Source of the DNA: Chitinophagales bacterium
GTDB lineage: Bacteria > Bacteroidota > Bacteroidia > Chitinophagales > LD1
Direction of reading: 5' to 3'
Assembly: GCA_016786765.1 (NCBI GenBank)
Contig: JAEUUZ010000022.1
Span: forward strand, 98,443-148,294
DNA: 49,852 nt
A program made the translations under genes and the position numbers. The notes beneath the pieces were generated by a model, which ran no database searches, had not been told where the DNA came from, and worked only from the letters and a program-made list of their open reading frames with translations. This document shows, piece after piece, positions 32,195-47,842 of this stretch (positions within the stretch are counted from its first letter, which is position 1; each line of letters starts with the position of its first letter).

Positions 32195-32500
32195 TGTTAG
32201 TCTACTCTTTTAAAATTCGGTTTCGATGCGGAGAAAATACAAGAATTCGCATACTAGCTTTCAAAATGGCACTGGTTTGTGGTTTAGGCTTTGATACCAA
32301 TCCGATGAGTATTGAGATATGAGTATTTAAAAGGAACTTAATATTCTTTTCAATTATTTTATTTTCCAAAAGAAAACATTACGGAAAAATGTTATACGAC
32401 AAAATTGTGTATAAGTTATCTTTTTGTTAAAAAAACTAGACAGATTCGTGTTTTTTTTTTACACTTGTAGTCAATGTATAATAAAATAAAAAAACAAAAC
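32195..32500. other. Region upstream of the giant gene with a T10 tract
   Basis: No gene is credible in this AT-rich 306-bp stretch. It contains the T10 homopolymer at 32451-32460 that directly adjoins TACACTTG (32460-32467), a one-mismatch -7 box. A run of A/T-rich sequence and a short ATG-rich segment follow up to the giant gene's ATG. No -33 element is seen at the normal distance. Confidence 0.6.
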
Positions 32501-35500
32501 ATGATTAATTTGAAATCTACTTCAAAATCATTCCGAGTTTCTGCCTTCAAAACCATTTCATTATTTTTTGTAATGCTTACTGGTGTTGGGTTTACAAATG
32601 CCCAAACTGCTTCTTCGTATAACTTCTCGCAATCGAGTGGTTCATACACTGCAATTACAGGAGGAACGGCATATGCAGCTGCGGATAATGCTGTTTATGG
32701 AGGTACGGCAAATTTACTGCCTTTTTCATTTAGTTATTTAGGAACCAGTTATACTTCTTTCCGAATTAGTACTAATGGTTTTATTACTTTAGGAAATGCA
32801 ACAACGCCTAGTACTTCAAATTATACTCCATTATCTGGTACGGCTGCTTCATTAAATAACTGTATTTCAGCACTAGGATGCGATTTGAATTCTACTCCAC
32901 GTTATGAAGTACTTGGAACATCCCCAAATCGTATAGCAGTCATTCAATGGAGCGGGGTATATAGATATTCACCTGGTCCCGGCAGTACTGAAAATCTTAG
33001 TTTTCAAGTTAGGTTATATGAGACCTCAAATAAAATAGAAATAGTTTATAGTCCTACAACAGTGGTTGCATCTACTGCTATAGTTGGTCAGGTTGGAATA
33101 AAAGGCGCATCTAACGCAGATGTAAATAATGTTTCGTTTACTAATGCCACTTTAACAGGGTATACCTATTCTAGAAGTTGGGACAATTTAATCACCGCAT
33201 CAAGCAATGCAGATGCTGTGGTTATAGGAACCGGATTAGCTCCAGCATCTGGAACTACCTTAACATGGATGCCTGCAACGTGTGCGCAACCCACAGTAAC
33301 TGCCACGAGCACATCTGTAACATCTACCGGATTTACTGTGAATTGGACAAATAGTGCTACTTATGCTTCTGGATATAATGTGCGTTGGAGAAAAGTGGAT
33401 GAATTGCCAAGCGTAACCTCTTGGGCAACGCCAACAGTTGTAGCTGCAGGTAGTTCAAGTTATGCCATAACCGGCTTGTCAAATTCTACTTCGTATATAT
33501 ATAGTGTAGAAGGTCTTTGTTCCGGTTCATCACGAAGTAATTATTCAAAAGTAACTACTTCCAATACAACCAATGGAATTGGTTTGGTGCAAACATTAGC
33601 AGCTTGTCCGGGAGCGCCAACTGCATTGACTTCTTCTTCGATAGGAACAACTACTGCAACCATTAGTTGGACAGCCGCATCGCCTGCACCTGGAAGTGGA
33701 TATGAGTATTATTATAATACAACAGGTACAGCTCCAACCGGTTCTACTACGCCTTCCGGTTCTACTGCTGCAGGTATTGTAACTGCTAATTTATCCTCTT
33801 TAACTTCTGCCACTCAATATTATTATTGGGTTCGATCAAATTGTAATGGAACAGATAAATCGACTTGGACTGGATCTGGGACATTTACAACTGTTTGTTT
33901 ACCTGAAACTGCCCCAACTGCAGTTCAAACATTTGCTACATATACCGGAGCTGCACCTGCCCCAGTATGTTGGAGTGAAACAAAGGGTACTTTTGGTGCA
34001 TTTACAGGAACGGTGAGCGATTGGTTGCTCAAGGGTTCTGGATTTGCCAATGTTACTTCTTCAAATCCCGGAGTAGGTATTAACTTATATGGCGGTTCAT
34101 CTGGTACTCCTGACAATGATTGGATAATCTCTAATCAAATTGATTTAGGTGCTACACCGAGTTTGTATAGAGTATCCTATAAAATGGCGGTAACTACATA
34201 TAATGCAACTGGAAGTGTTACAACATTGGGCACACATACCGTTAAAGTAGTTGTTTCTACGGATGGAGGAACTACTTGGACTAGCGCTAATGTAATAAAA
34301 ACATATACTGGAGCGGCTACCTATAGTACTTCAGGTATAACGGAAACTGTAGATTTAACAGGTTATTCAGGTGTTGTAAAAATTGGTTTTTTAGCAACAA
34401 CGATTGGAACTACACCGGATATTGATTTTCATATTGATGACTTTAAAGTAGAATTAATTCCTACTTGTCCTAATCCTACTGCAGCAGCTGCAACTTCTGT
34501 AACGAGCAATTCCGCTATTGCGAATTGGTCGGGTGGAACAGGATCTTATATTATCGAATATGGAGCAACAGGCTTCACTCCTGGCACTGGGGCAACTGCA
34601 GGTGGCGGTACTGTAGTTACAGCTTCTGCCGGAGCTACAAATATAACGTTAACAGGTTTGTCTTCTTCAACAACATATCAATATTACGTTCGACAAGTTT
34701 GTTCAGGTCCTTCCTATAGTACAAACTCATCTGCAATTTCATTTACAACACTTTGTGGTGCATCAACGGCTCCAACAGCTGTGCAAACATTCGCAACATA
34801 TACAGGCTATGCTCCTGCTCCAACGTGTTGGAGTGAGGCTACAGGAACATTTGGTGCAGTAACGACAGCAGATGCAAGTTGGCTCTTAAAAACTTCCGGA
34901 TTTGCCAATGCTTCTGCATCAAATCCTGGAGTAGGAATAAACTTATATGGAGGTTCATCAGGTACACCGGACAATGATTGGATTATATCAAATCCTATAG
35001 ATTTGGGTGCTACAGCCGGACTTTATAGAGTATCTTATAAAATGGCAGTTACTACTTACAATGCTACAGGTACTGTTTCTACATTAGGTACACATACTGT
35101 AAAGGTTGTTGTTTCTACAGATGGTGGCGCTACTTGGTCTAACACAAATGTGATTAAAACATATACAGGTGCTGCATCATACAGCAATACCGGTGTTACT
35201 GAAACAATTGATTTAACAACTTATTCTGGTGTTGTAAAAATTGGATTTTTAGCAACAACGATTGGAACTACTCCGGATATTGATTTTCATATTGACGATT
35301 TTCTTGTTGAAGCAATACCGGCATGTGCTGCGCCTACTTCACTTAGCTCTTCATCTGTTGGAAACACAACAGCTACGATTTCTTGGGGTGCCGTAACCGG
35401 AGCGTCTTCTTATGATTGGGAGATTAGAACTACCGGTGCATGTGGAAGTGGATCACCTGTTCAATCAGGAAATACAGCAACTACTTCCGTGAATCTTACC

Positions 35501-38500
35501 GGATTAACGGCTGGTCAGACATATACTTATTGTGTGCGAACGGTTTGTGCAGGACCAACACAAAGTACTTACAATTCATCTGCTTTTACTACAACTCAAC
35601 CGGGAACAACATGTGCTAACCCAATTGTGGTAAATTCATATCCTTATACTTTATCGAGTAACTCTACCGGAATGGGTTTTGATATTGGAACACAAACGTC
35701 AACATGTAGCAGCAGTTATGGAGGTGGAGAAGACGTTGTTTTTCAATTGAACATCACCACTACTGGAACGTATTCCATCAACTTAACCAATACATCATCA
35801 TCAGGTTGGATTGGATGGTTTTTGAAAGACAATACAAACTGTGCAACAACATCTTCATCTTTGGGTTGTGCTGTAAGTGGTAGTGGTAACACTGCCAATG
35901 GCACATACACTTTCACCACTGCAGGTACCTATTATCTTATTATTGATTATTTTGCTACTCCTAATAATTCTGCATATACGCTTAACATCACCCCACCTTG
36001 TTCAGGAGCACCAACCGGAGGAACTGCATCAACAACAACGCCTTCTAGATGCCAGTCTCAAACAGCTGTATTAACAGTGAGTGGTCAATCTTCTGATGCA
36101 GGTATAACATATCAATGGCAAGTTTCATCTACTTCCGGATCAGGTTACGCTAACGTATCTGGTGGTTCAGGAGCAACAACTACAAGTTATACTACTGCAG
36201 CTTTAACTCCTGGTACCTATTATTATGTTTGTAAAACTACATGTACTGGAAGTGGATTGTCAACTCTTTCTGCTGAAGATACTATAGTTGTAACAGCCAC
36301 ACCTACTGTTAGTATTTCTCCTACCACCGCAAGTGTTTGTGGAGCTGCGAGTATTACGTTAACCGCATCAGGTGCATCTACTTATGCATGGTCTAACTCC
36401 GGAGGTTCAGCAGCAGCAGCAACTTTTAGTGGATTAACCGGGAACACTACTTATACTGTTACTGGAACTACTTCGGGCTGTACTGCTTCAACAACAAGAA
36501 CGGTTACCTTTTTCCCAAGTACAACAGGTACATTACCGCAGAATGTTGATTTTACAAGTTTTGCTGGAGGCAATTTGGCGACTCTATTTACTGGTTGGTT
36601 TGAAGCTTTAGGGATTCCACCATCCGGTACAACATCTTCATGGACAAGTGGAACATTTGCTAATGTTAGTGGTGCTAGTAATGCTGCTCAAATTGTATTA
36701 TCAGGAACTGCTAAAGATGGCTGGATTATCAGTCCCAATATCACACCAGCTGCATGTACCAAATTAACTTATACGTTAGCCTTGACGGCAAACGGAGCAA
36801 CAACTCCGGCTTTACTTCGATCTACTGATGAATATAAAGTGATGGTTTCTTCTGATTGCGGTGCTACATGGACTGCAGTTAGTTCATTCAATAGTTCAAG
36901 CATTATTTCTAACACCGGGCAATCTGAAACCGTAGATTTAGCTGCATATGCAGGTGTACCTATTAACGTTGCATTCTATGCCGTTACAACAAGTGCTACA
37001 GCTACCGGTGCAGTACAAGTACATATCGATAACGTAAGTATCAAAGATCAAGCGCCAGTAGATTTATCGGCACAATTATTAGTTGCTCCTAGTGTAGCCG
37101 GCTGTGTTGGCGGTGCAGCTGTGCCGGTTACTGTAAGAATCAGAAATGTGGGTTGTAACCCTATAACTTTTACCTCAGGAGTACCTGCAACAGTAACTAC
37201 CACTGTAGGATTACCTGGTGGGGGAACGAATGTACTTACAGGAACCGTTACTTCCGGAACTTTGGCTGTAAATGGAACTCTTGATGTAACTATGTCGGCT
37301 ACGCAAGCGATGTTAACAGGAGGTACTTATACCTTTACCTCAGTAGTTGCTATTACAGGTGATGGCGATGCAACAAACGATCAAAACGTGACTACAAGAG
37401 TGGTTTTAAGTAATGTATCTTTACCTCAAACGCTTGATTTTTCATCATTTACCGGTTCCGATTTAACTACATTTTATCCGAATTGGGCAGAGGCTTCAGG
37501 ACAACCATTGCCTTCAACAGCAGGATCTTCATGGTTAAGTACCTCCGGATTTGGCGGGGGTGCAAATGTTACTGCAAGAATCAATCTTTACTCAAATTTG
37601 AAGCGCGAATGGATTGTTGGACCTAAGTTCTCTGCAAGTGCTTGTTCATCTATTTCTTTTGATGCGGGCATTACTGATTTTGCCGATGTTTCACTTGCCG
37701 ATCCTTCAGGAATGACAGGAACTGACGATTCAGTGAACGTGATGGTATCTACAGATTGCGGAAGTACTTGGACAAGGATTTATTCTTTCAATGCCTCAAA
37801 TCAACCTATTTTTGCTTTAAATAATTACCAAGTAAGTTTAGCCGCATACAGTGGCCAAGATATTATCGTTGCCTTTTTTGCAACAGAGGGATCTATAGAT
37901 AATTCTCCGGATTATGATTTCCATTTAGACAATATTAATATCTCCAATAAAATACCGATTGATGCTTCGATAACTGCTGTTACAGCTCCTGCATCTTCTT
38001 TATGTGGTACTGCATCGGAAAACGTTATTGTTACATTAAAGAATGTTGGTTGTAATTCATTATCTTCTTTCCCTGTAACCGTTAATGTTACAGGAGCGGT
38101 AACTACGTCTATCTCAGGTACATACACTGGAACAATTGCACCTGATGCTACAGCAAGTTTTACAGTAGGTACATTAGATATGACGAGCGGAGGTACATAC
38201 AATTTTTCTGCAACGGTTAATACTGCCGGAGATGGTAATGCCTCAAACAATACTGCAACGCGAACAAGTATTACATTAAATCCATCTATTTCGATTACAC
38301 CTGCATCTGCAACTATTTGTAATGGGGGTAGTCAGGCGTTAACGTCAACAGTAGCTCCTGTTAACGCTTCCGATTCCATCCGTCCATTTGGATCTTCTTC
38401 AACTACAGCAAATTCAACAGGATCTGCTTTAGGACCAAATACGATGCAAGATTATTATGGTGGTTCTCGATTCCAAATGCTGTTTAAGCCAGCCGAGTTG

Positions 38501-41230
38501 ACGGCTGCAGGTTTAGATGCTACCTCATCGATTACTTCAATTACAAATTACCTTTCGGCAGTTGATAATACATATGCATTATTGAATTTGAAGATTAAAT
38601 TGAAACAAGTGGCTGCGGCATATACTTTGACATCAACTTTTGAGTCAGGTCTAACGCAAGTATATAATAATGCAAGCTACACACCTTCAATTGGCGCTAA
38701 TGCTTTCAGTATTACTCCTTTCGCTTGGGATGGAACGAGCGCTTTAATTGTAGAGTTTACTTATGGAAATGCTAATAATGGAAACCCTGTTACTGCAACA
38801 AATACTATGGTATATGGAACGACCTCTTTTGTAAGTTCTAGTTTATATCGCACAGATGTTTCAACAGCTGCGACCATTGAAGCTATTACTACTGCGGGTT
38901 ACACATATAGTTCTCGTCCAAACACTAAGTTTGGGTATACCAAGACATTGGTTCCTACTTGGACAGTTAGTCCAAGTTTATACTCAGATGCGGGAACAAC
39001 AACGGCTTATACAGGTACTCCTTTAGCTACTGTTTATGCTAAACCTTCTGCTACAACATCATATGTTGCAACAGTTTCAAATAGTGGATGTTCTTCTTCT
39101 GCAAGTCGTTCAGTTACTGTTAACCCTCGTCCTACTGCAGTAATGAGCGGTACAGCAAATATCTGTACCGGCTATTCTACTAACTTGAGTGTAGCCCTTA
39201 CCGGTAGCGGCCCATGGAGTATTACTTACACTGATGGCGTAACACCGGTTACTGTAACAGCAACCAGCAGTCCGAAATTGATTTCAGTTTCGCCTACTAC
39301 AACTAAAACATATACAGTTTCAGCATTGAGTGATGCTTTGTGTTCTGCAATTTCGGGCGATTTAACCGGAAGTGCAACAGTAACACCGGGTACAACTTGT
39401 ACATTAACATGGAATGGAACAACCAGTAACGATTGGAGCGATCCATTGAACTGGACTCCGAATGGATTACCGAATAGTTGTGCATCGAGCGTTTCTATTC
39501 CATCCGGAACTCCAAATAGTCCAATTGTTGCTTCGGCAATTAACATTGGCGATATGACAATTCAAAATGGCGCTCAGTTAACCTTAAATAACACATTGAG
39601 TTTATGCGGCAACTTAACAGGCGGCAGCTCAAGTAATGCATTGATTATCGGTACCTCAGAACTTCGCTTCATTGGCACCGGAGCACAACAAATTACAGGT
39701 AAAGTAAATGCGAATAAAGTTCGTGTGAACAATACCTCCACTGGCGTAACGGTAGTAGCTGCTGGAGACTTGTCGGTAAATACTGCATTGATTTTAGAGA
39801 AAGGAAACTTCGCCAACAGTGGGGTGGTAACGCTTAAATCAAATGCAAGCACAACGGCATACTTAGATAACTTTACAAGTACTACACCTGGAACGTACAG
39901 TGGTCCATTGACTGTAGAAAGATATGTAAGTAATACGGCTAATGGGTATAGAGATATCAGTTCACCGGTAACGGCAACTGTTGGAGGCCTATCAGACGAT
40001 TTTAGCATATTTGGAGCGAATGGGGTACAATGTTGGTATGCCTATAACCCATATCCGAACGTTCAGATCTACAATGAAAAGCTTACGATTGCTACCGGAG
40101 TTTACGATGAAGGTTTTGTGAGCTACACCGGTTTAACGAATCCATTAACAGCGATGTTAGGGGTTGCGGTTAGAACATACAATGGCGCACCCTATACCAT
40201 TGATTTAACGGGAACACCGAACACCGGAGCTAAATCCATCTACATCAACAAATCAACAACGGCTACCCCAACGGCCGATGGATGGAACTTAATTGGTAAT
40301 CCATACCCATCACCAATTACATGGAGTAGCTTAAAAGCGTTGAACGCTGGAAAAACAGACGGAAGTTATTATGTGTTTCATACAACGGGCGAGTACACAG
40401 GAAACTGGGGATCGCATAACGGAGTAACGGGAGTAAATGGCGCCACGAACGAAATTGCATCTACGCAAGGTTTCTTTGTTAAAGCTACAGCGGGAGGGGC
40501 ATTTAATGCCACCAACAGTGTTCGAGTAGCAAATGAAAACACAGTGTTCTACAAAACAGATGCCGTACAACCGGATGAGATTCGTTTGTTATTAAGCAAC
40601 AATGTGAACAGCGATGAAGTAGTAGCCTATTCTGATCCAAACGCTACCATGAACTATGATGCAGGTATTGATGCATTGAAGATGTCGGGGGGCAGTACAG
40701 TGTACATGAGCTACAAACACGCAGGTCAGGAGATGGCAATTAATGCGGTGGATGCGGTAACTGTACAAACAGAGTTTCCATTGGTATTATGGGCAAAAGA
40801 GACAGGTACTTATACGTTGTCGGCTACCGAATTGAACTTGACAGGCTTAGTGGCTTACTTGAAAGATGCAACAACGAACACATTAACCGATTTACGCAGC
40901 AATACAGCCGCTATTGAATTAACAGGTGGAGTAGCATCGGAGGGTAGATATTCCGTTGTGTTTGAAGAGGTGCAGAATCCAACAGGTATAGCGAATGTAA
41001 AAGAATCGAACATTCAGATTTATGCAACAGAAGGAAAGGTGATTGTGCAGCGATCGAGCAACAGCAATGCAAATATCACCATCACGAATTTATTGGGTCA
41101 AACGGTGGTAGAGACAACGTCTGAGACTAACCGTACAATCATTCCTGTAGACAACACGAATCCGTGGTATGCAGTGGTGAGAGTGCAAGAAGCAGGTAAA
41201 GTGAAAGTGAGCAAAGTGTTGATCAGATAA
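32501..41230 (+). CDS. Giant T9SS cargo protein with fibronectin-III and adhesin-like modules
   Basis: A 2909-residue secreted protein. Signal peptide is MINLKSTSKSFRVSAF plus hydrophobic TISLFFVMLTGVGFTNA. ATG at 32501 is chosen; an ATG at 32474 adds nine residues. Ser/Thr/Gly-rich modules follow: a beta-sandwich domain (about 25-255), fibronectin type III repeats (NSTSYIYSV, SATQYYYWVRSNC), two nearly identical cleaved-adhesin-like domains (PDNDWIISN...TPDIDFHIDDF, about 860 bp apart), Ig-like and choice-of-anchor-type domains, and the end ITNLLGQTVVETTSETNRTIIPVDNTNPWYAVVRVQEAGKVKVSKVLIR, a T9SS type A signal. Probably a secreted adhesin or matrix protein. It ends 40 bp before the PID-CTERM gene with no clear terminator. 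Confidence 0.9.
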   Translation: MINLKSTSKSFRVSAFKTISLFFVMLTGVGFTNAQTASSYNFSQSSGSYTAITGGTAYAAADNAVYGGTANLLPFSFSYLGTSYTSFRISTNGFITLGNATTPSTSNYTPLSGTAASLNNCISALGCDLNSTPRYEVLGTSPNRIAVIQWSGVYRYSPGPGSTENLSFQVRLYETSNKIEIVYSPTTVVASTAIVGQVGIKGASNADVNNVSFTNATLTGYTYSRSWDNLITASSNADAVVIGTGLAPASGTTLTWMPATCAQPTVTATSTSVTSTGFTVNWTNSATYASGYNVRWRKVDELPSVTSWATPTVVAAGSSSYAITGLSNSTSYIYSVEGLCSGSSRSNYSKVTTSNTTNGIGLVQTLAACPGAPTALTSSSIGTTTATISWTAASPAPGSGYEYYYNTTGTAPTGSTTPSGSTAAGIVTANLSSLTSATQYYYWVRSNCNGTDKSTWTGSGTFTTVCLPETAPTAVQTFATYTGAAPAPVCWSETKGTFGAFTGTVSDWLLKGSGFANVTSSNPGVGINLYGGSSGTPDNDWIISNQIDLGATPSLYRVSYKMAVTTYNATGSVTTLGTHTVKVVVSTDGGTTWTSANVIKTYTGAATYSTSGITETVDLTGYSGVVKIGFLATTIGTTPDIDFHIDDFKVELIPTCPNPTAAAATSVTSNSAIANWSGGTGSYIIEYGATGFTPGTGATAGGGTVVTASAGATNITLTGLSSSTTYQYYVRQVCSGPSYSTNSSAISFTTLCGASTAPTAVQTFATYTGYAPAPTCWSEATGTFGAVTTADASWLLKTSGFANASASNPGVGINLYGGSSGTPDNDWIISNPIDLGATAGLYRVSYKMAVTTYNATGTVSTLGTHTVKVVVSTDGGATWSNTNVIKTYTGAASYSNTGVTETIDLTTYSGVVKIGFLATTIGTTPDIDFHIDDFLVEAIPACAAPTSLSSSSVGNTTATISWGAVTGASSYDWEIRTTGACGSGSPVQSGNTATTSVNLTGLTAGQTYTYCVRTVCAGPTQSTYNSSAFTTTQPGTTCANPIVVNSYPYTLSSNSTGMGFDIGTQTSTCSSSYGGGEDVVFQLNITTTGTYSINLTNTSSSGWIGWFLKDNTNCATTSSSLGCAVSGSGNTANGTYTFTTAGTYYLIIDYFATPNNSAYTLNITPPCSGAPTGGTASTTTPSRCQSQTAVLTVSGQSSDAGITYQWQVSSTSGSGYANVSGGSGATTTSYTTAALTPGTYYYVCKTTCTGSGLSTLSAEDTIVVTATPTVSISPTTASVCGAASITLTASGASTYAWSNSGGSAAAATFSGLTGNTTYTVTGTTSGCTASTTRTVTFFPSTTGTLPQNVDFTSFAGGNLATLFTGWFEALGIPPSGTTSSWTSGTFANVSGASNAAQIVLSGTAKDGWIISPNITPAACTKLTYTLALTANGATTPALLRSTDEYKVMVSSDCGATWTAVSSFNSSSIISNTGQSETVDLAAYAGVPINVAFYAVTTSATATGAVQVHIDNVSIKDQAPVDLSAQLLVAPSVAGCVGGAAVPVTVRIRNVGCNPITFTSGVPATVTTTVGLPGGGTNVLTGTVTSGTLAVNGTLDVTMSATQAMLTGGTYTFTSVVAITGDGDATNDQNVTTRVVLSNVSLPQTLDFSSFTGSDLTTFYPNWAEASGQPLPSTAGSSWLSTSGFGGGANVTARINLYSNLKREWIVGPKFSASACSSISFDAGITDFADVSLADPSGMTGTDDSVNVMVSTDCGSTWTRIYSFNASNQPIFALNNYQVSLAAYSGQDIIVAFFATEGSIDNSPDYDFHLDNINISNKIPIDASITAVTAPASSLCGTASENVIVTLKNVGCNSLSSFPVTVNVTGAVTTSISGTYTGTIAPDATASFTVGTLDMTSGGTYNFSATVNTAGDGNASNNTATRTSITLNPSISITPASATICNGGSQALTSTVAPVNASDSIRPFGSSSTTANSTGSALGPNTMQDYYGGSRFQMLFKPAELTAAGLDATSSITSITNYLSAVDNTYALLNLKIKLKQVAAAYTLTSTFESGLTQVYNNASYTPSIGANAFSITPFAWDGTSALIVEFTYGNANNGNPVTATNTMVYGTTSFVSSSLYRTDVSTAATIEAITTAGYTYSSRPNTKFGYTKTLVPTWTVSPSLYSDAGTTTAYTGTPLATVYAKPSATTSYVATVSNSGCSSSASRSVTVNPRPTAVMSGTANICTGYSTNLSVALTGSGPWSITYTDGVTPVTVTATSSPKLISVSPTTTKTYTVSALSDALCSAISGDLTGSATVTPGTTCTLTWNGTTSNDWSDPLNWTPNGLPNSCASSVSIPSGTPNSPIVASAINIGDMTIQNGAQLTLNNTLSLCGNLTGGSSSNALIIGTSELRFIGTGAQQITGKVNANKVRVNNTSTGVTVVAAGDLSVNTALILEKGNFANSGVVTLKSNASTTAYLDNFTSTTPGTYSGPLTVERYVSNTANGYRDISSPVTATVGGLSDDFSIFGANGVQCWYAYNPYPNVQIYNEKLTIATGVYDEGFVSYTGLTNPLTAMLGVAVRTYNGAPYTIDLTGTPNTGAKSIYINKSTTATPTADGWNLIGNPYPSPITWSSLKALNAGKTDGSYYVFHTTGEYTGNWGSHNGVTGVNGATNEIASTQGFFVKATAGGAFNATNSVRVANENTVFYKTDAVQPDEIRLLLSNNVNSDEVVAYSDPNATMNYDAGIDALKMSGGSTVYMSYKHAGQEMAINAVDAVTVQTEFPLVLWAKETGTYTLSATELNLTGLVAYLKDATTNTLTDLRSNTAAIELTGGVASEGRYSVVFEEVQNPTGIANVKESNIQIYATEGKVIVQRSSNSNANITITNLLGQTVVETTSETNRTIIPVDNTNPWYAVVRVQEAGKVKVSKVLIR

Positions 41231-41270: not shown

Positions 41271-41504
41271 ATGAACAAATCAATGAAGAAAGTATTTGCA
41301 ACAGTAATTGTAATAGTAGCAAGTGTAGCATTAGTATCTGCGCAGCCAGGTGGTGGTGGTGGTGGAAATCCGGGTGGTGGTCCGCCTCCGGGTGGTGGAT
41401 CAGGTGCACCTATTGATGGTGGCGCAACTATATTTATGCTATCGGTGATTGGCTATGCATATAAAAAGATTAAGGACAAAGAAACACAGGGTTTTAATGT
41501 TTAA
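41271..41504 (+). CDS. Small Gly-rich protein with PID-CTERM sorting tail
   Basis: A 77-residue protein made of a signal peptide (MKKVFATVIVIVASVALVSAQ), a Gly/Pro-rich linker (about residues 26-45), the tripartite tail GAPIDGG, a hydrophobic stretch (ATIFMLSVIGYAY) and basic KKIKDK. This is the substrate architecture for exosortase cleavage, with PID as the motif. Genes for a membrane partner and an exosortase follow at 44 bp and beyond, as in other PID-CTERM loci (family knowledge). Function is otherwise unknown; it could be a major cell-surface product because the linker is simple. ATG at 41271 or 41283 are both possible. Confidence 0.82.
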   Translation: MNKSMKKVFATVIVIVASVALVSAQPGGGGGGNPGGGPPPGGGSGAPIDGGATIFMLSVIGYAYKKIKDKETQGFNV

Positions 41505-41548
41505 GACATGTTTATGTCATAGTCTTTGATTTAAAATCTATAAGAATC

Positions 41549-42406
41549 ATGTCGGATGTTTTTACAAAAACAGATGAAGTTGACAATAGGCCTAAAAAAG
41601 GAGTAGTAGTAATCTACTCCTTTTTAGTTGCTACGCTTAACTTTATTGCTGTTGTTTTCGGTTACCAATTTTTTGTAGGGGTAATTAGTTACTTGTTGGG
41701 GTATGAAACCCATTTTTATTTTGGAAGAATTGTTTCTCAGCCTTTCATGGATGAGTATTGGAGTAATAATCGGGTTATTGTTATGTATGCCATTCCTCCT
41801 TTAGCATTTTTAAGTGCAGCTGTTTTTCTGCTTTCTCGTTTGTTGCCGAAAAAGACTGCAATCAATCGTATTGAATTTTACTTGTTCTGGCTAATAGTAT
41901 TTCTTGTGTTTTTTGTCACCACACAAATGACAACAGCTCCTATTTCTCTGTATTATAGGGATAGTCAGCTTTATCAAGGCTTACCTGTACTGATTTATTG
42001 GTTTAGGCTTCCAATTTTATCAAGCGTTGTATTGTTTTGCTTAGCCTTAGCCATAAATTTATTGGCAGGTTATTTTATCTATCCACTATTATTAAAGTTG
42101 GCACATACTGAGTATTGCTCTGAAGACCGACCTTGGAAAGGGAAAGTTGTTCGTTTGTATTTTGTTTACCCGTTATTGTTGGTTTTGATTGTTGCCATAA
42201 TTCTTGGCTATATGTATTCACTAGCCTATTTCTTGGTAATGTTACTGAGTAGTTTTTTATGGGGTTTTGGTATGTGGTTAAAAGATATTCATATGTATAG
42301 ATACGAGGGTATTTCCACCAATAGATTGTCGATAGAAATCGGATATAAGTTGCCGGTACTTGTATGCGTACTTGTTATTCTCATTCGGATTTTCTTAGCA
42401 AAGTAA
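41549..42406 (+). CDS. Polytopic membrane protein associated with the exosortase
   Basis: A 285-residue protein with seven or eight helices, e.g. VVVIYSFLVATLNFIAVVFGYQFF, VIVMYAIPPLAFLSAAVFLLSRLL, FYLFWLIVFLVFFVTTQ, LPILSSVVLFCLALAINLLAGYFIYPLLL and LYFVYPLLLVLIVAIILGYMYSLAYFLVMLLSSFLW. It sits directly between a PID-CTERM substrate and an exosortase, 4 bp upstream of the latter, and matches the 'exosortase-associated membrane protein' that I recall for such loci in Bacteroidota. No catalytic motif is visible. Codons 16-26 encode a terminator-like hairpin (see findings). Confidence 0.8.
   Translation: MSDVFTKTDEVDNRPKKGVVVIYSFLVATLNFIAVVFGYQFFVGVISYLLGYETHFYFGRIVSQPFMDEYWSNNRVIVMYAIPPLAFLSAAVFLLSRLLPKKTAINRIEFYLFWLIVFLVFFVTTQMTTAPISLYYRDSQLYQGLPVLIYWFRLPILSSVVLFCLALAINLLAGYFIYPLLLKLAHTEYCSEDRPWKGKVVRLYFVYPLLLVLIVAIILGYMYSLAYFLVMLLSSFLWGFGMWLKDIHMYRYEGISTNRLSIEIGYKLPVLVCVLVILIRIFLAK
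41594..41625 (+). terminator. Terminator-like hairpin inside a coding region
   Basis: AAAAAGGAGTAG (41595-41606) pairs perfectly with CTACTCCTTTTT (41614-41625) around a 7-base loop; the T-run doubles as a U-tract. It is an intrinsic-terminator-like structure at codons 16-26 of the membrane-protein gene, 90 bp after the PID-CTERM stop. Whether it works as attenuator is unknown. Confidence 0.6.
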
Positions 42407-42410
42407 TTGT

Positions 42411-42947
42411 ATGGAGAGTAAAACTTCATTGTTTAGAAGCGACAGTATTTTAATTCCGATTAAAATAGTTTCAATTTATATTGCATGGAAAATATTCCAT
42501 CACTTTGCTTCTGTTGAAAGTACTGGTTTAAATATCTTTTGGAAGCAACTATGTGAAGTTTTCGGAACAGCTTATGCTGTTATAACGGCTAAGATGTTAG
42601 TTCTATTTGGTCAGAAAGCCTATTCCAGCGGAATTAATATTTATTTAGCGCAACAAAAAGAAATTTGGGTGCAAGAACATTGTTTAGCCATTCCTGCTAA
42701 AGTAATATTTGTAGGTTCTATTTTATCGTTTCATGGAAAGTGGAAAGACAAGTTTTTGTTTATTGTAATTGGTTTGATGGGTATTATTCTCATCAATATA
42801 GCACGATTAATTTTTGTGTCTTTGGCATGGTTATATTTCCCATTATATTTTTTCGACATGAACCATTCTTTAATTTATGCTGTGCTTGCATATGGGTTCA
42901 TCTTTTTTATGATTAGATGGTGGATTAAAAGGCAGATAGGGAATTAA
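42411..42947 (+). CDS. Exosortase (probably XrtX-like)
   Basis: A 178-residue integral membrane protease/transpeptidase of the exosortase/archaeosortase family. The catalytic triad is visible as Cys91 in QEHCLAIPAKV, Arg132 in IINIARLIFVSLAW and His152 in DMNHSLIYAVLAYG. Five or six helices are predicted and the protein is shorter than the classical EpsH-type enzymes, as in small exosortases of Bacteroidota. The substrate gene is likely the PID-CTERM protein at 41271, with possible further substrates elsewhere in the genome. It lies 4 bp after the membrane-protein gene and 23 bp before the Crp/Fnr gene. Confidence 0.9.
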   Translation: MESKTSLFRSDSILIPIKIVSIYIAWKIFHHFASVESTGLNIFWKQLCEVFGTAYAVITAKMLVLFGQKAYSSGINIYLAQQKEIWVQEHCLAIPAKVIFVGSILSFHGKWKDKFLFIVIGLMGIILINIARLIFVSLAWLYFPLYFFDMNHSLIYAVLAYGFIFFMIRWWIKRQIGN

Positions 42948-42970
42948 TGGCCTTTACCTAAATTATACGA

Positions 42971-43555
42971 ATGTCTACAGATTTTTCATTAATTAAGAAC
43001 TTCTATAAACAGATGGTACCTGAGCTGCGAGATGAATCGTGGTTAGAATTGCAAAACATGTTTACAATACGGCATTTACGCAAGGGCGACTTTGTTTCTA
43101 AATCCGGTGAAATTGTAAAACAGGTTACTTTTTTTAATAACGGCTATGGTCGTTTCTATTACAATATTGATGGAAAGGAATCTGTTGGTGCCTTTTTTCA
43201 GAAAGGGGATTACATATGTGATTATGAAAGCTTTTTAACGCAAAAGCCGGGTCTTGTTAATATTGATGTATTAGCCGATTCAGAACTGATAGAGTTGAGT
43301 TTTGATAATATGCAGTATTCCTATAAACACTTTCCCGAGTTTCAAAAATTTGGACGTGTGATGGCAGAGTTTTTGTATTTAATGTTGAGTAGTAGAAATG
43401 CATCATTGTTATTAAAAACACCGGAGCAGCGCTACTTAGATTTTGTATCTAACTCACCACATTTGTTACAACTTGTTCCTCAGTATATGATTGCTTCTTA
43501 TTTGGGGGTAACCCCTGAAGCACTTTCACGTATTCGTAAGCGATTGAGTTCGTAA
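42971..43555 (+). CDS. Crp/Fnr-family transcriptional regulator
   Basis: A 194-residue regulator: a cyclic-nucleotide-binding-like sensor domain (LRKGDFVSKSGEIVKQVTFFNNGYGRFYY, FFQKGDYICDYESFL), a long dimerisation helix, and a C-terminal HTH (MIASYLGVTPEALSRIRKRLSS). The recognition helix contains EALSR, the ExxSR motif that in FNR reads TTGAT. There is only one Cys (in YICDYE), so no Fe-S cluster. The sensor lacks a clear cAMP-binding RGExx(S/T)SxxR signature, so the ligand is unknown. It is 23 bp after the exosortase gene and directly upstream of two FNR-like boxes and a receptor gene. Confidence 0.9.
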   Translation: MSTDFSLIKNFYKQMVPELRDESWLELQNMFTIRHLRKGDFVSKSGEIVKQVTFFNNGYGRFYYNIDGKESVGAFFQKGDYICDYESFLTQKPGLVNIDVLADSELIELSFDNMQYSYKHFPEFQKFGRVMAEFLYLMLSSRNASLLLKTPEQRYLDFVSNSPHLLQLVPQYMIASYLGVTPEALSRIRKRLSS

Positions 43556-43557
43556 TT

Positions 43558-43596
43558 TATTGATTCAGATCAATACTAGTTATTGATGTGAATCAA
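43558..43596 (+). promoter_or_regulatory. Two FNR-type palindromes upstream of the receptor gene
   Basis: Box 1 is TTGATTCAGATCAA (43560-43573), extended to 7-bp arms by TA/TA outside. Box 2 is TTGATGTGAATCAA (43583-43596). Both match TTGAT-N4-ATCAA exactly, centres 23 bp apart. They start 5 bp after the Crp/Fnr stop and end 68 bp before the receptor ATG at 43665. They suggest control of the receptor gene by the adjacent regulator or a paralogue; binding is inferred. Confidence 0.7.
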
Positions 43597-43664
43597 CGAA
43601 TTCAACAGATTGTGAAGCAGATATTTGTTTTGTGAAAAAATTAGCACAACAAAATCTGTTTAAT

Positions 43665-46031
43665 ATGCAAAAACGAAGTTTCTTCTCTTTCTTGTTTTTA
43701 CTTACATCGTCTGCGATTTGGGCACAAGCAGTTCAAACTGTTTATGGGTCAATTTCGGATAAGGTCTCGGAAGAGCCGCTTATAGGGGCGAATATCTATT
43801 TAGTTAACTCGAATCCGCCAATTGGAGCAACAACTGATGCGAATGGGAAATTTGAAATGCAGGTGCCGTTAGGGCGGCAAAGTTTTACGATTACTTATAT
43901 AGGCTATAAACCACAAACTGTTCCTGAAATTTTAGTTGCATCTGGAAAGCAAGTTGTTCTAGATGTAAAATTGGAGGAGCTTGTGAATAAAATGCAAGAT
44001 GTAGTGGTTTCCGCTGAAACAAGAAAGGATCGAGCGAATAATGAGTTCAGTGCAGTGAGTGCACGAACGTTTAGTTTGGAAGAAGTAACACGTTATAGTG
44101 GAGGAAGAAATGACGTTGGGCGCTTGGTTACAAATTTTGCAGGCGTGAATGCCAGCAATGATTCCAGGAATGATATTGTTGTTCGTGGAAATTCGCCAAC
44201 TGGTGTTTTATGGCGATTAGAAGGTGTGCCGATTCCCAATCCGAATCATTTTGCGACACTTGGAACTACGGGTGGTCCTGTAAGTGCATTGAACACAAAT
44301 TTGTTGAAGAATTCCGATTTTCTTACAGGGGCATTTGCAGCAGAATACGGTAACGCCAACAGTGGTGTGTTTGATGTTGGCTTTCGTTCGGGCAATACAT
44401 CGAAGCATGAGTTTTTAGTGCAATTAAACATGTTTAGTGGAGTTGAAGCAATGGCAGAAGGGCCAATGAACAAACGCAAGGATGCGAGTTATTTAATGAG
44501 CTATCGTTATTCTTTTGCCGGTATTGGAGCTGCATTAGGCATTCCGATTGGTACTGCTGCAACACCGCAATATCAAGACTTCAGTTTTAAGTTTGATTTG
44601 CCCAATAGCCGAAAAGCCGGTAAGTTCAGCGTGTTTGGTATTGGTGCGTATAGTTACATCAAATTTATAGGCAAGCAACTTACAACGGAAGATTTATTTG
44701 CAGATCCATACAGCGACCAATATGCAAAAAGTGGCTTAGGTATTATTGGTATAAAGCACAGTATTAGTGTTGGTAAGAATGGGTATATAAAAACGGTGTT
44801 AAGCGGAAGTATGGAAGCTTCTTTGTTTGATCAATATAGTTTTCCGGATAGTATGAATCGTCAGCATATTACACAAGTGCGAGATTATACCGGTACGATT
44901 AGACTAGCAAGTTATTACAACCGGAAGTTTAATAGCAAGCTGAGCCTGCGGGCCGGTTTAACGGAAGAAGTATATATATTAAATTCAAAACGTGATACAC
45001 GCGATGGTTTTCCGGATTGGGTGAATTTACGGAATACAAAAGGCGCTATGTCTTTAACGCAACCTTATGCACAACTTCAGTATAAACCTATTGGGCAAAT
45101 CACATGGAACGTTGGGGTGCATGGGCAATACCTTAGCTACAATAATACATGGAGTATAGAGCCAAGAACTTCATTGTCATACCAACCGCATCCTCGTCAT
45201 ACGATTTCATTTGCCTATGGTTGGCATTCGCAAATGCAACCTTTGCCCGTCTATTTTTATAAAGCACAAAACAGTGATGGAACATTTAACTACGATAACA
45301 AACAACTTGATTTTACACGCAGTCATCACATAGTGTTGGCTTATGATGTAAAGATTGCGGATGATTGGCGTATTAAACTAGAACCTTATATTCAGTTTAT
45401 TACAGGCGCACCTATTGAAAAGGTATCATCTTCTTATAGCGTATTAAATGCCGGAGCTAATTTTGTTTTTCCGGATAAAGGCTTTTTAACGAACGAAGGA
45501 CAAGGTCGAAATATGGGAGTTGAATTTACTTTAGAAAAGTTTTTCAGTAAAGGGTTTTACGGATTGCTTACGGCCAGTGTGTTTGATAGTAAGTATAAAG
45601 GAAGTGATGGAGTATGGAGAAATACTACATTCAACAATCGATACTTAATTAATTTTTTAGCAGGCAAAGAATTTAAAGTTGGAAAACAAAAGCGACATGC
45701 TATTACTACGGATTTGAAGTTTTCAACCAGCGGAGGGAAGTGGTACACACCTATTGATGTAGCTGCATCACAACTCGCTCATCGTGAGGTATTACAAGAA
45801 GATAAAGCGTTTAGTGAACAGTATCCATATTATCTTCGCTTAGACATAAAACTCGGTTTCCGTTTGAATGGTAAAAAAGGGAAAGTAAGTCATACATTTT
45901 ATTTAGATGCACAGAATGTAACTTTCCAAAAGAACATATTTGAACGAAGATTTAATTTGCAAACTGGGCAAGTGAACAATGTATATCAATTGGGATTCTT
46001 TCCTGATTTTATGTATCGAATTCAGTTTTAA
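43665..46031 (+). CDS. TonB-dependent receptor with carboxypeptidase-regulatory N-terminal domain
   Basis: A 788-residue outer-membrane receptor. The signal peptide is MQKRSFFSFLFLLTSSAIWA, followed by a CarboxypepD_reg-like domain (VYGSISDKVSEEPLIGANIYLVNSN, with GKFEMQVPLGRQSFTITYIGYKP), a plug domain (RNDVGRLVTNFAGVNASNDSRNDIVVRGNSPTGVLWRLEGVPIPNPNHFATLG) and a barrel that ends in FPDFMYRIQF with a terminal Phe, the outer-membrane insertion signal. ATG at 43665 is chosen over GTG at 43632 because the signal peptide begins there. No SusD partner is present; the substrate is unknown. Two FNR-type boxes lie upstream. It ends at a terminator shared with the convergent gene. Confidence 0.93.
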   Translation: MQKRSFFSFLFLLTSSAIWAQAVQTVYGSISDKVSEEPLIGANIYLVNSNPPIGATTDANGKFEMQVPLGRQSFTITYIGYKPQTVPEILVASGKQVVLDVKLEELVNKMQDVVVSAETRKDRANNEFSAVSARTFSLEEVTRYSGGRNDVGRLVTNFAGVNASNDSRNDIVVRGNSPTGVLWRLEGVPIPNPNHFATLGTTGGPVSALNTNLLKNSDFLTGAFAAEYGNANSGVFDVGFRSGNTSKHEFLVQLNMFSGVEAMAEGPMNKRKDASYLMSYRYSFAGIGAALGIPIGTAATPQYQDFSFKFDLPNSRKAGKFSVFGIGAYSYIKFIGKQLTTEDLFADPYSDQYAKSGLGIIGIKHSISVGKNGYIKTVLSGSMEASLFDQYSFPDSMNRQHITQVRDYTGTIRLASYYNRKFNSKLSLRAGLTEEVYILNSKRDTRDGFPDWVNLRNTKGAMSLTQPYAQLQYKPIGQITWNVGVHGQYLSYNNTWSIEPRTSLSYQPHPRHTISFAYGWHSQMQPLPVYFYKAQNSDGTFNYDNKQLDFTRSHHIVLAYDVKIADDWRIKLEPYIQFITGAPIEKVSSSYSVLNAGANFVFPDKGFLTNEGQGRNMGVEFTLEKFFSKGFYGLLTASVFDSKYKGSDGVWRNTTFNNRYLINFLAGKEFKVGKQKRHAITTDLKFSTSGGKWYTPIDVAASQLAHREVLQEDKAFSEQYPYYLRLDIKLGFRLNGKKGKVSHTFYLDAQNVTFQKNIFERRFNLQTGQVNNVYQLGFFPDFMYRIQF

Positions 46032-46047
46032 CTGCATTGTAATTTGA

Positions 46048-46082
46048 TAAAAAAATCCCGCCCTGATAACAGAACGGGATTT
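46048..46082. terminator. Terminator repeat, copy 1
   Basis: AAATCCCG (46053-46060) pairs with CGGGATTT (46075-46082), inner CTG with CAG, with A- and T-runs at the edges. It serves the receptor gene and the convergent T9SS gene, whose stop is just beyond. The sequence ATCCCGCCCTGATA also occurs at the terminator near 49260. Confidence 0.82.
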
Positions 46083-46086
46083 GGAT

Positions 46087-47727
46087 TTATCGGGTAAGTG
46101 CTATTTTAAACGTTGAAGCTAATCCTGCTTTTGTGTTAATATTAAGTAAGTAGTATCCATTAGATAGGAATTCAGGTAAGTGAAGAATGGTATGCTTCTC
46201 GTTTATTGCAGCTATTCCTTTGTTCACGGTATTGCCCAATACATCGGTAATAGTATAATCGATTTGATTCGCAGTTATATCCTCAAAGGATATGTTTATT
46301 TGTCCTAAGGAAGGATTTGGATATACACTAACTAATGGAGATGCTGAAAGTGCTTTGTCAATTGAAACTGTTTGTGTTTGCTGATTACAAATGCTGAACA
46401 ACTCTTCACCATTCGAGATATTTTGAGCGCCAAAGATTAAGCAATTATTCGATAAGTACATCGGCTTATTCGAAATAGTTATTGCATTGTTTGTTGTAAT
46501 GTTTTGGATGGATGATTCTGTTGATTTGAAAATTTTCAGTTCACCGAAACTGTTGTAGCCGTGAAAGTAAATGTAGTTTGACGTTAGCAGTAAATTTGAA
46601 GGGGATGATACACTCACACTCACAGGGAAACTGTATCTTGAAAATGTTGTTCCATTTAACGTATAAATCGAGTGAACACCATTTTGATCTTCCGCTAAAA
46701 TGGAAAGTTTGTTTTTGAAACTAAAGATTGCACTGGGATTTATTGGTCCTCCTGCTGAAGTCGTTTGTACAAGTTGTGTGCCTGCAACAGTTCCATTCGA
46801 TTTATATACAGTTCGATTGGAACCATCATACGCACTAAAGTAAAGGAGACCATCAAACACATACAAGTTATTTACATCTGGAGTAGCCGATGAGAAATTT
46901 GTTAGCCGAATTGTTCCTGCGGCAGTTCCATCAGTAACCCAAAGTTCTCTTCCATATATGTCATCGTATGCAGAAAAGAATACTTTGTTGTTTAATGTAG
47001 TTAGAAATGCCGGATTGCTACCAAACATTGGTCCTTGAGAATTATTCGTGTAAATATCTTTTACCAAGTATGTTCCGGCAGCGGTTCCATCTGTGCGCCA
47101 CAGCTCTGCTCCCGTTGAGTCGTTTCCTGCTCCAAAGTATACAACTCCGTTCATTTTCGTAAAGTACTTCTCAATGCTTGTATTTATCAATGCGTTTCCT
47201 GTTGGATTGATATCTTTTATCATATACGTGCCATTAGTGGTTCCATCTGTTATCCAAGGTTCAATAGCATGCATATCGTCATATCCGATAAAGATAAATT
47301 TACCGGGTGTCAATTCAATATTTGAAGCAAATACAATTGATGGAAATTCTTGTGTTGGGTCGAAGTCTTTGAGCAACGTTATATTCCCTGTTTGAACGTT
47401 TATCTTGTAAACGCTTTCCCCTATATTGTCGTTTAAGTAGCCTCCTGTAAATATCAAGTCGGACCCTGTTAAACCGATAAACGTACTTATAAAGAAGTAG
47501 TCGTCAGAAAATAGCTCTTTAGTGCCTCCTTGAGTACCATCCGATACAGCTATTCCTTTTCGCAAATCTGAGCTTTCAAATTGGAAGTAAATTTTATCCG
47601 AAGTTTTATAATTTGCCAATAATAATTCGGAACCGCTGGCTCCCAATCGAAATTCTTTTAGTAAGGATTGAGCATTTACGATTAGAGCCGAAAATAAAAT
47701 AAGGACAGATAGGTATGTTTTTTTCAT
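46087..47727 (-). CDS. T9SS cargo protein with WxxDGTxxGT repeats
   Basis: A 546-residue secreted protein. The signal peptide is MKKTYLSVLILFSALIVNAQ, selected by ATG at 47727 although the frame opens upstream to 47751. Repeats of the ELWxxDGTxxGT kind are visible, for example PWITDGTTNGTYMIKDINPTG, ELWRTDGTAAGTYLVKDI, ELWVTDGTAAGTIRLTNF and YKSNGTVAGTQLVQ, which form a beta-propeller-like fold in known relatives. The C-terminal SPLVSVYPNPSLGQINISFEDI and ITDVLGNTV are the type A T9SS sorting domain. Function unknown; probably a cell-surface or secreted propeller. Divergent from the 468-residue helical protein. Confidence 0.88.
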   Translation of the reverse strand: MKKTYLSVLILFSALIVNAQSLLKEFRLGASGSELLLANYKTSDKIYFQFESSDLRKGIAVSDGTQGGTKELFSDDYFFISTFIGLTGSDLIFTGGYLNDNIGESVYKINVQTGNITLLKDFDPTQEFPSIVFASNIELTPGKFIFIGYDDMHAIEPWITDGTTNGTYMIKDINPTGNALINTSIEKYFTKMNGVVYFGAGNDSTGAELWRTDGTAAGTYLVKDIYTNNSQGPMFGSNPAFLTTLNNKVFFSAYDDIYGRELWVTDGTAAGTIRLTNFSSATPDVNNLYVFDGLLYFSAYDGSNRTVYKSNGTVAGTQLVQTTSAGGPINPSAIFSFKNKLSILAEDQNGVHSIYTLNGTTFSRYSFPVSVSVSSPSNLLLTSNYIYFHGYNSFGELKIFKSTESSIQNITTNNAITISNKPMYLSNNCLIFGAQNISNGEELFSICNQQTQTVSIDKALSASPLVSVYPNPSLGQINISFEDITANQIDYTITDVLGNTVNKGIAAINEKHTILHLPEFLSNGYYLLNINTKAGLASTFKIALTR

Positions 47728-47842
47728 ATTTAGTAATTTGAATGCAAACATATTCTGGATGCTATTGATAGTGAATGTGAATTGTTTTGATTTGTGATAG
47801 GATTTGATTGAAATTTTGCCAAAAAAACTATATGGCTAGCTC

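Follow-up and report, generated by a model that had tools for sequence, protein, structure and literature searches.

Pairing of PID-CTERM microprotein genes with RemA-like type IX secretion cargo genes in Bacteroidota

The stretch of DNA analysed here, hereafter the window, comprises 49,852 nucleotides (nt) of contig JAEUUZ010000022.1 from a Chitinophagales bacterium (assembly GCA_016786765.1). It carries an exosortase module in which a PID-CTERM microprotein, the putative exosortase substrate, is encoded directly behind a giant cargo of the type IX secretion system (T9SS). Pairing of T9SS cargo genes with PID-CTERM (PID) genes is found phylum-wide, which suggests that two surface sorting systems studied separately so far cooperate. 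A preliminary description of the window, made from its letters and open reading frames, had joined the exosortase module with a Crp/Fnr regulator, two operator-like boxes and a TonB-dependent receptor into one regulated sorting-and-uptake system. All features that it named were found where, and in the order in which, it had placed them, and the exosortase, its substrate and a membrane partner form a real module conserved at the loci of family relatives. The relatives do not bear out the extension of this module to the regulator and receptor.

Cargo genes in front of PID-CTERM genes

The search for PID_CTERM covered 398 genomes from the order and 392 from the phylum; some 120 loci were then read. 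T9SS cargos were recognised with a C-terminal domain (CTD) profile of our own, seeded from window proteins that do not adjoin any PID gene and extended on non-adjacent genes only. By this profile, 101 of 140 PID genes have a T9SS cargo gene as their upstream neighbour, always on the same strand (a raw count, like all pairing counts here, with no phylogenetic correction). On the downstream side the profile recognises 11 of 138 neighbours, and among the remaining genes of these regions 52 of 1013. The paired cargos have a median length of 1035 amino acids (aa) and a median gap of 37 nt to the PID gene. With the NCBIfam model TIGR04183, applied to the first 60 loci, cargos are recognised among 36/60 upstream neighbours, 3/59 downstream neighbours and 9/122 background genes (Fisher p 4e-14 for upstream versus background). 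Pairing also holds for 33 of 43 PID genes in the phylum-wide sample, which is drawn mostly from other orders and classes. Chance linkage of cargo and PID genes is ruled out by these neighbour counts.

Alignment of the PID-paired cargos revealed that they share ~350 residues in front of the CTD. This region contains a GNP motif that is invariant and a QGFFV-like motif, both at a near-constant distance from the C terminus. Profiles of this pre-CTD domain and of PID were run separately on whole genomes. PID genes stand directly after a cargo with the domain in 51 of 56 cases (eleven genomes), and one genome alone (G348; L150-L152, L210-L225) contains 24 domain cargos and 22 PID genes, which form 20 pairs. 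When the five closest domain sequences served as the starting point in named genomes (among them Chitinophagales and Hymenobacter), a PID motif was found within 700 nt downstream of 51 of the 78 cargos selected, and just three PID motifs lay elsewhere in the DNA read. Among the closest relatives, the 14 whose cargo end is complete all carry the pair, and from stop to start the gaps measure 2-85 nt, in most cases 2-33 nt.

The module was also searched for in 30 family genomes, and each gene of the loci was inspected. Six relatives (L046, with one extra gene, L047, L049, L050, L051 and L052) have the giant T9SS gene first, then the PID gene, the partner and the exosortase, two others (L057, L059) have the variant order giant, PID, exosortase, partner, and the order cargo, PID, partner, exosortase was seen again in the named loci. 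Gene order, which the preliminary description had offered as a check, is hence kept in its upstream part and lost downstream: the conserved partner of the exosortase cluster is the upstream gene for a giant RemA-like T9SS adhesin, not the regulator or the receptor.

The same description had proposed looking for further PID-CTERM genes in this genome. There are three in total, together with three exosortases, and two of the three PID genes sit behind domain cargos. The second own-genome domain cargo of this kind (1968 aa; L079, G000:C6:240000-259500) has a PID-CTERM gene (C6:248883) 8 nt downstream and no exosortase nearby. The third PID-CTERM gene (G000:C17:14317, L062) adjoins a predicted hydrolase, not a T9SS cargo, and is directly followed by the second exosortase. 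The remaining exosortase (G000:C46:64587, L063) lies in a different neighbourhood that recurs in the family, with two more genes behind it and no PID gene there.

Other arrangements exist as well. At seven loci (L164, L172, L173, L177, L186, L192, L202), a setting that recurs in the family and forms an exception to the pairing, the PID-CTERM gene lies behind a methyltransferase-like gene of ~130 aa, mostly with a 227-aa gene in front of it, and there is no T9SS cargo. At six others (L188, L195, L196, L201, L206, L207), the PID-CTERM gene is enclosed between a giant T9SS cargo of 2600-3450 aa and polysaccharide-export-like genes. In the literature searched, no publication names an exosortase together with PID-CTERM and none states a linkage to T9SS cargos; the NCBI curators who named the PID_CTERM domain may know the neighbourhood.

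The giant cargo, the microprotein and the exosortase

The giant cargo of the window (2918 aa, 32474-41230, + strand) has a signal peptide, fibronectin-III repeats (Pfam fn3 x4), Ig-like repeats, the pre-CTD domain (aa 2487-2832, GNPYPSP...QGFFV, 39932-40969, +), which was delimited by alignment and profile matches, and a T9SS-type CTD (40970-41227, +). Pfam has no match for the pre-CTD domain, and of its 19 members examined with NCBIfam a single one shows a weak stray match. One profile of the domain (A6) matches RemZ (E 6e-35) and RemA (E 1.6e-27) of Flavobacterium johnsoniae, and a second (A8) matches RemZ at E 1.5e-13. Judging from these matches, the region is homologous to that of the RemA/RemZ adhesins; for the giant itself, adhesion or gliding is predicted at most.

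TIGR04183 and the other NCBIfam models do not match the giant at E 0.01, and our own CTD profile does (E 9e-6). AlphaFold2 modelled the giant C terminus with a pLDDT of 90.4 when 65 relatives were included, versus 36.6 from the single sequence. The 75 residues after the pre-CTD domain adopt a CTD-like fold: model residues 355-432 superpose on the CTD structures of RemA (Z 10.2, root-mean-square deviation 1.9 over 73 residues), RemZ (Z 9.9), RgpB (Z 9.4) and NucA (Z 9.0), with deviations of 1.9-2.1 in these comparisons, in a range where ordinary fibronectin-III folds also score Z 8-9, so that the fold by itself is no proof of a CTD. For this reason, the assignment draws on the fold, the profile match and the relatives taken together, and these support a predicted T9SS CTD in the giant although TIGR04183 misses it. 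The structure search, which mainly covered the CTD (model residues 355-432), gave no clear fold for the pre-CTD domain.

As the preliminary description had noted, the giant gene ends (stop at 41230) 40 nt before the PID-CTERM gene (77 aa, 41271-41504, +), with no terminator-like site on the + strand between them; such sites are absent from all the gaps from the giant gene up to the receptor gene. PID proteins generally have a linker of ~10-25 residues between the signal peptide and PIDGG, followed by one membrane helix and a basic tail. The window protein has this architecture, with a signal peptide, a Gly/Pro linker of ~20 aa, the PIDGG motif, a transmembrane stretch and a basic tail, the C-terminal P-x-D-G-G and its flanks being those expected of PID-CTERM. 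Against NF046080 it reaches 21.7 bits as a protein and 22.4 in the genome scan, below the cut-off of 26, and it has no Pfam match. It is recovered at E 2e-12 by a profile built with relatives, in which the window sequence is itself one of the 38 rows; P, D, G and G of P-x-D-G-G are invariant across these 38 aligned tails. The linker, of type QPGGGGGG or QPPGGGGG, is conserved in the window protein and in each of the 14 closest pairs. If both signal peptidase and exosortase cut this protein, only a short Gly/Pro peptide would remain.

Behind the PID-CTERM gene follow the polytopic membrane partner (285 aa, 41549-42406, +), an open reading frame conserved beside the exosortase, with no NCBIfam model and no significant Pfam match, and the exosortase (178 aa, 42411-42947, +). 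The latter passes the superfamily model TIGR04178 (34.5 bits, cut-off 23). Its best-matching named subfamily is Exosortase X (XrtX, NF046081), in which it stays below the cut-off (75.1 versus 170 bits). The catalytic residues proposed for it earlier, Cys91, Arg132 and His152, are all present, and they are invariant in 31 of 31 family homologues. In the order sample (398 genomes), 72 of 73 PID-bearing genomes have an exosortase, versus 83 of 325 genomes without PID. A contig scan with the single window exosortase as query recovered no relatives.

Possible roles of the module and of its neighbours

We consider it probable that the module is an adhesin-display cassette, in which a short Gly/Pro microprotein, processed by the exosortase, supports the surface display or maturation of the RemA-like cargo. 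Signal peptide and C-terminal helix would bring the PID-CTERM microprotein into the inner membrane. The exosortase and the membrane partner would then cut at P-[IV]-D-G-G, releasing or conjugating a Gly/Pro-rich peptide of ~15-25 residues, and this peptide may act in trans on the paired cargo, most likely in its surface retention, anchoring or maturation. A service to the cargo is suggested by the constant association with one cargo class. The proposal builds on the observed pairing, the shared cargo domain, the CTD fold, the co-occurrence with exosortases and the conserved active site. It is also in line with results from F. johnsoniae, where deletion of xrtF or of its neighbour occupies the same table row as deletion of porU or porZ, with reduced sand colonisation, much less biofilm and absence of zorbs (PMC10936215).

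Several points weigh against the cassette. About a quarter of PID genes have no upstream T9SS cargo and many domain cargos have no PID gene (5/7 in the genome of the window), so that trans action or other roles must exist. The domain profiles were derived from PID-paired cargos, which favours the recovery of such cargos. Genome G020, initially scored PID-negative and later shown to carry a cargo-PID pair (C8:212519-214062), has no detected exosortase. The xrtF phenotype could be indirect, and we infer the cleavage, the fate of the peptide, the anchoring and the effect on the cargo.

The exact service rendered to the cargo can be pictured in two ways. In the first, the processed PID peptide would be a membrane- or glycan-linked anchor of the RemA-like adhesin, and the two sortase systems would work in sequence; we regard this as quite unlikely. 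If it were true, exosortases would give T9SS cargos a route of surface attachment in Bacteroidota without the Porphyromonas-type anionic lipopolysaccharide (LPS) anchor. In the second, which we rate as improbable, the processed PID peptide, attached to a lipid or glycan by the exosortase, would receive the cargo from the T9SS sortase after CTD removal, in place of the anionic LPS of Porphyromonas. The conserved Gly-rich linker, the one-to-one pairing with T9SS cargos and the resemblance of xrtF mutants to porU and porZ mutants are consistent with such an acceptor, whereas the predicted signal-peptide cleavage would leave an N-terminal Gln, which is able to cyclise and block the amine. The T9SS sortase PorU is present in the genome of the window, but three PID genomes, among them G348 with its 20 pairs, show no PorU above the curated cut-off, which counts against the acceptor as well as against the cassette in general.

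Rather unlikely, but less so, is a looser relation in which the PID microprotein goes to exopolysaccharide and the T9SS adhesin acts in the same biofilm, with no direct interplay. Models of exopolysaccharide export match 11 of 59 downstream neighbours, the model proposed for PEP-CTERM ties sorted proteins to exopolysaccharide (described in PMC7468200), and the biofilm of F. johnsoniae requires xrtF (PMC10936215). However, most pairs, including that of the window, lack an adjoining polysaccharide gene, and the fact that PID genes pair one to one, in multiple copies, with one specific domain of the cargos suggests a tighter bond than a common habitat.

Downstream of the exosortase lie the Crp/Fnr regulator (194 aa, 42971-43555, +), two exact palindromes TTGAT-N4-ATCAA, neither assigned to a strand (box 1, TTGATTCAGATCAA, 43560-43573; box 2, TTGATGTGAATCAA, 43583-43596), and the TonB-dependent receptor with CarboxypepD_reg-like and Plug domains (43632-46031, +), the start of which is probably the ATG at 43665, where the signal peptide begins. 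A strong hairpin (46053-46082) parts the receptor gene from that of an ELWxxDGT-repeat protein with a type A T9SS sorting domain (46087-47751, - strand). The regulator matches PF00027 with 29.2 bits (cut-off 27.5) and HTH_Crp_2 with 19 bits, below the cut-off of 27. Its recognition helix is EALSR (ExxSR), and with one Cys only in 194 aa it lacks the cysteine cluster of the Fnr oxygen sensor. Both boxes and the helix are as the preliminary description had reported them; such a helix fits such boxes, as in Fnr. The boxes are the sole exact sites in the window, where 0.15 are expected and two or more arise in 2 of 100 shuffles; genome-wide there are 21 exact sites, versus 11 for the reversed control.

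That regulator, receptor and exosortase module make up one sorting-and-uptake system, as described earlier, now appears highly improbable. In its favour, about 24 nt without a terminator separate the exosortase gene from that of the regulator, and the two boxes are perfect. Yet among the relatives examined, the regulator and receptor lie beside the module in the genome of the window only: their homologues never adjoin it in the other family loci read or in 79 named relatives, a loss of neighbour order that the preliminary description had itself named as refuting, those of the regulator adjoin unrelated genes in the family, and the closest receptor (65% identity) sits in a genome without a detected exosortase, with no regulator or box adjacent. 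A direct link between regulator and exosortase was rejected, the neighbourhood not being conserved.

Instead, we lean slightly towards a separate local and lineage-specific unit outside the cassette and compatible with it, in which the ExxSR regulator would bind the two boxes and control the receptor gene, perhaps with read-through from the exosortase operon, which is possible given that no terminator-like site separates exosortase and regulator. The second ExxSR paralogue of the genome also has an exact box (TTGATATAAATCAA, G000:C10:21066-21079, L130:9067) just past its stop codon, before the next gene, whereas its two Crp/Fnr paralogues without the Glu have none. On the other side, the association of ExxSR with a box is not significant in 18 family homologues (2/7 versus 0/11, p 0.14), and the missing box beside the closest receptor also argues against the unit.

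Comparison with known systems

The pairing joins two questions, namely the job of exosortase substrates and how bacteria other than Porphyromonas and its relatives retain T9SS cargos on their surface, and a single gene deletion could address both. With PID-CTERM and exosortase X (NF046080, NF046081), the window shares the tail P[IV]DGG, hydrophobic stretch and basic end, and the Cys/Arg/His of the exosortase superfamily, but both its exosortase and its tail score under the curated cut-offs. Like Fnr-type regulators, the window regulator has an ExxSR helix and TTGAT-N4-ATCAA boxes; unlike them, it has a single cysteine and so no Fnr-type iron-sulfur sensor cluster.

The closest counterparts of the giant are RemA and RemZ of F. 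johnsoniae, type A T9SS substrates (PDB 8gl6, 8gl8) with a homologous pre-CTD domain and the same CTD fold. The giant is at least twice as long, contains repeats of the fibronectin-III and Ig-like types and has a PID-CTERM gene behind it. Behind type B T9SS cargo genes stands the gene of a dedicated PorP/SprF partner (PMC9143113, PMC12618676), and SprB-SprF, or a type B cargo with its PorP-like shuttle, thus resembles the window in that a T9SS adhesin gene precedes the gene of a dedicated partner. The window partner is, however, tiny and exosortase-tagged: the gene after the giant encodes the 77-aa PID-CTERM protein and not a PorP-like outer-membrane barrel, and the CTD of the giant resembles type A. 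Finally, XrtF of F. johnsoniae, an exosortase, and its associated protein are needed for surface colonisation, as are T9SS genes (PMC10936215). XrtF differs in subfamily from the window exosortase, and the cargo-PID pairing offers a plausible reason why the exosortase mutant resembles mutants of T9SS attachment genes.

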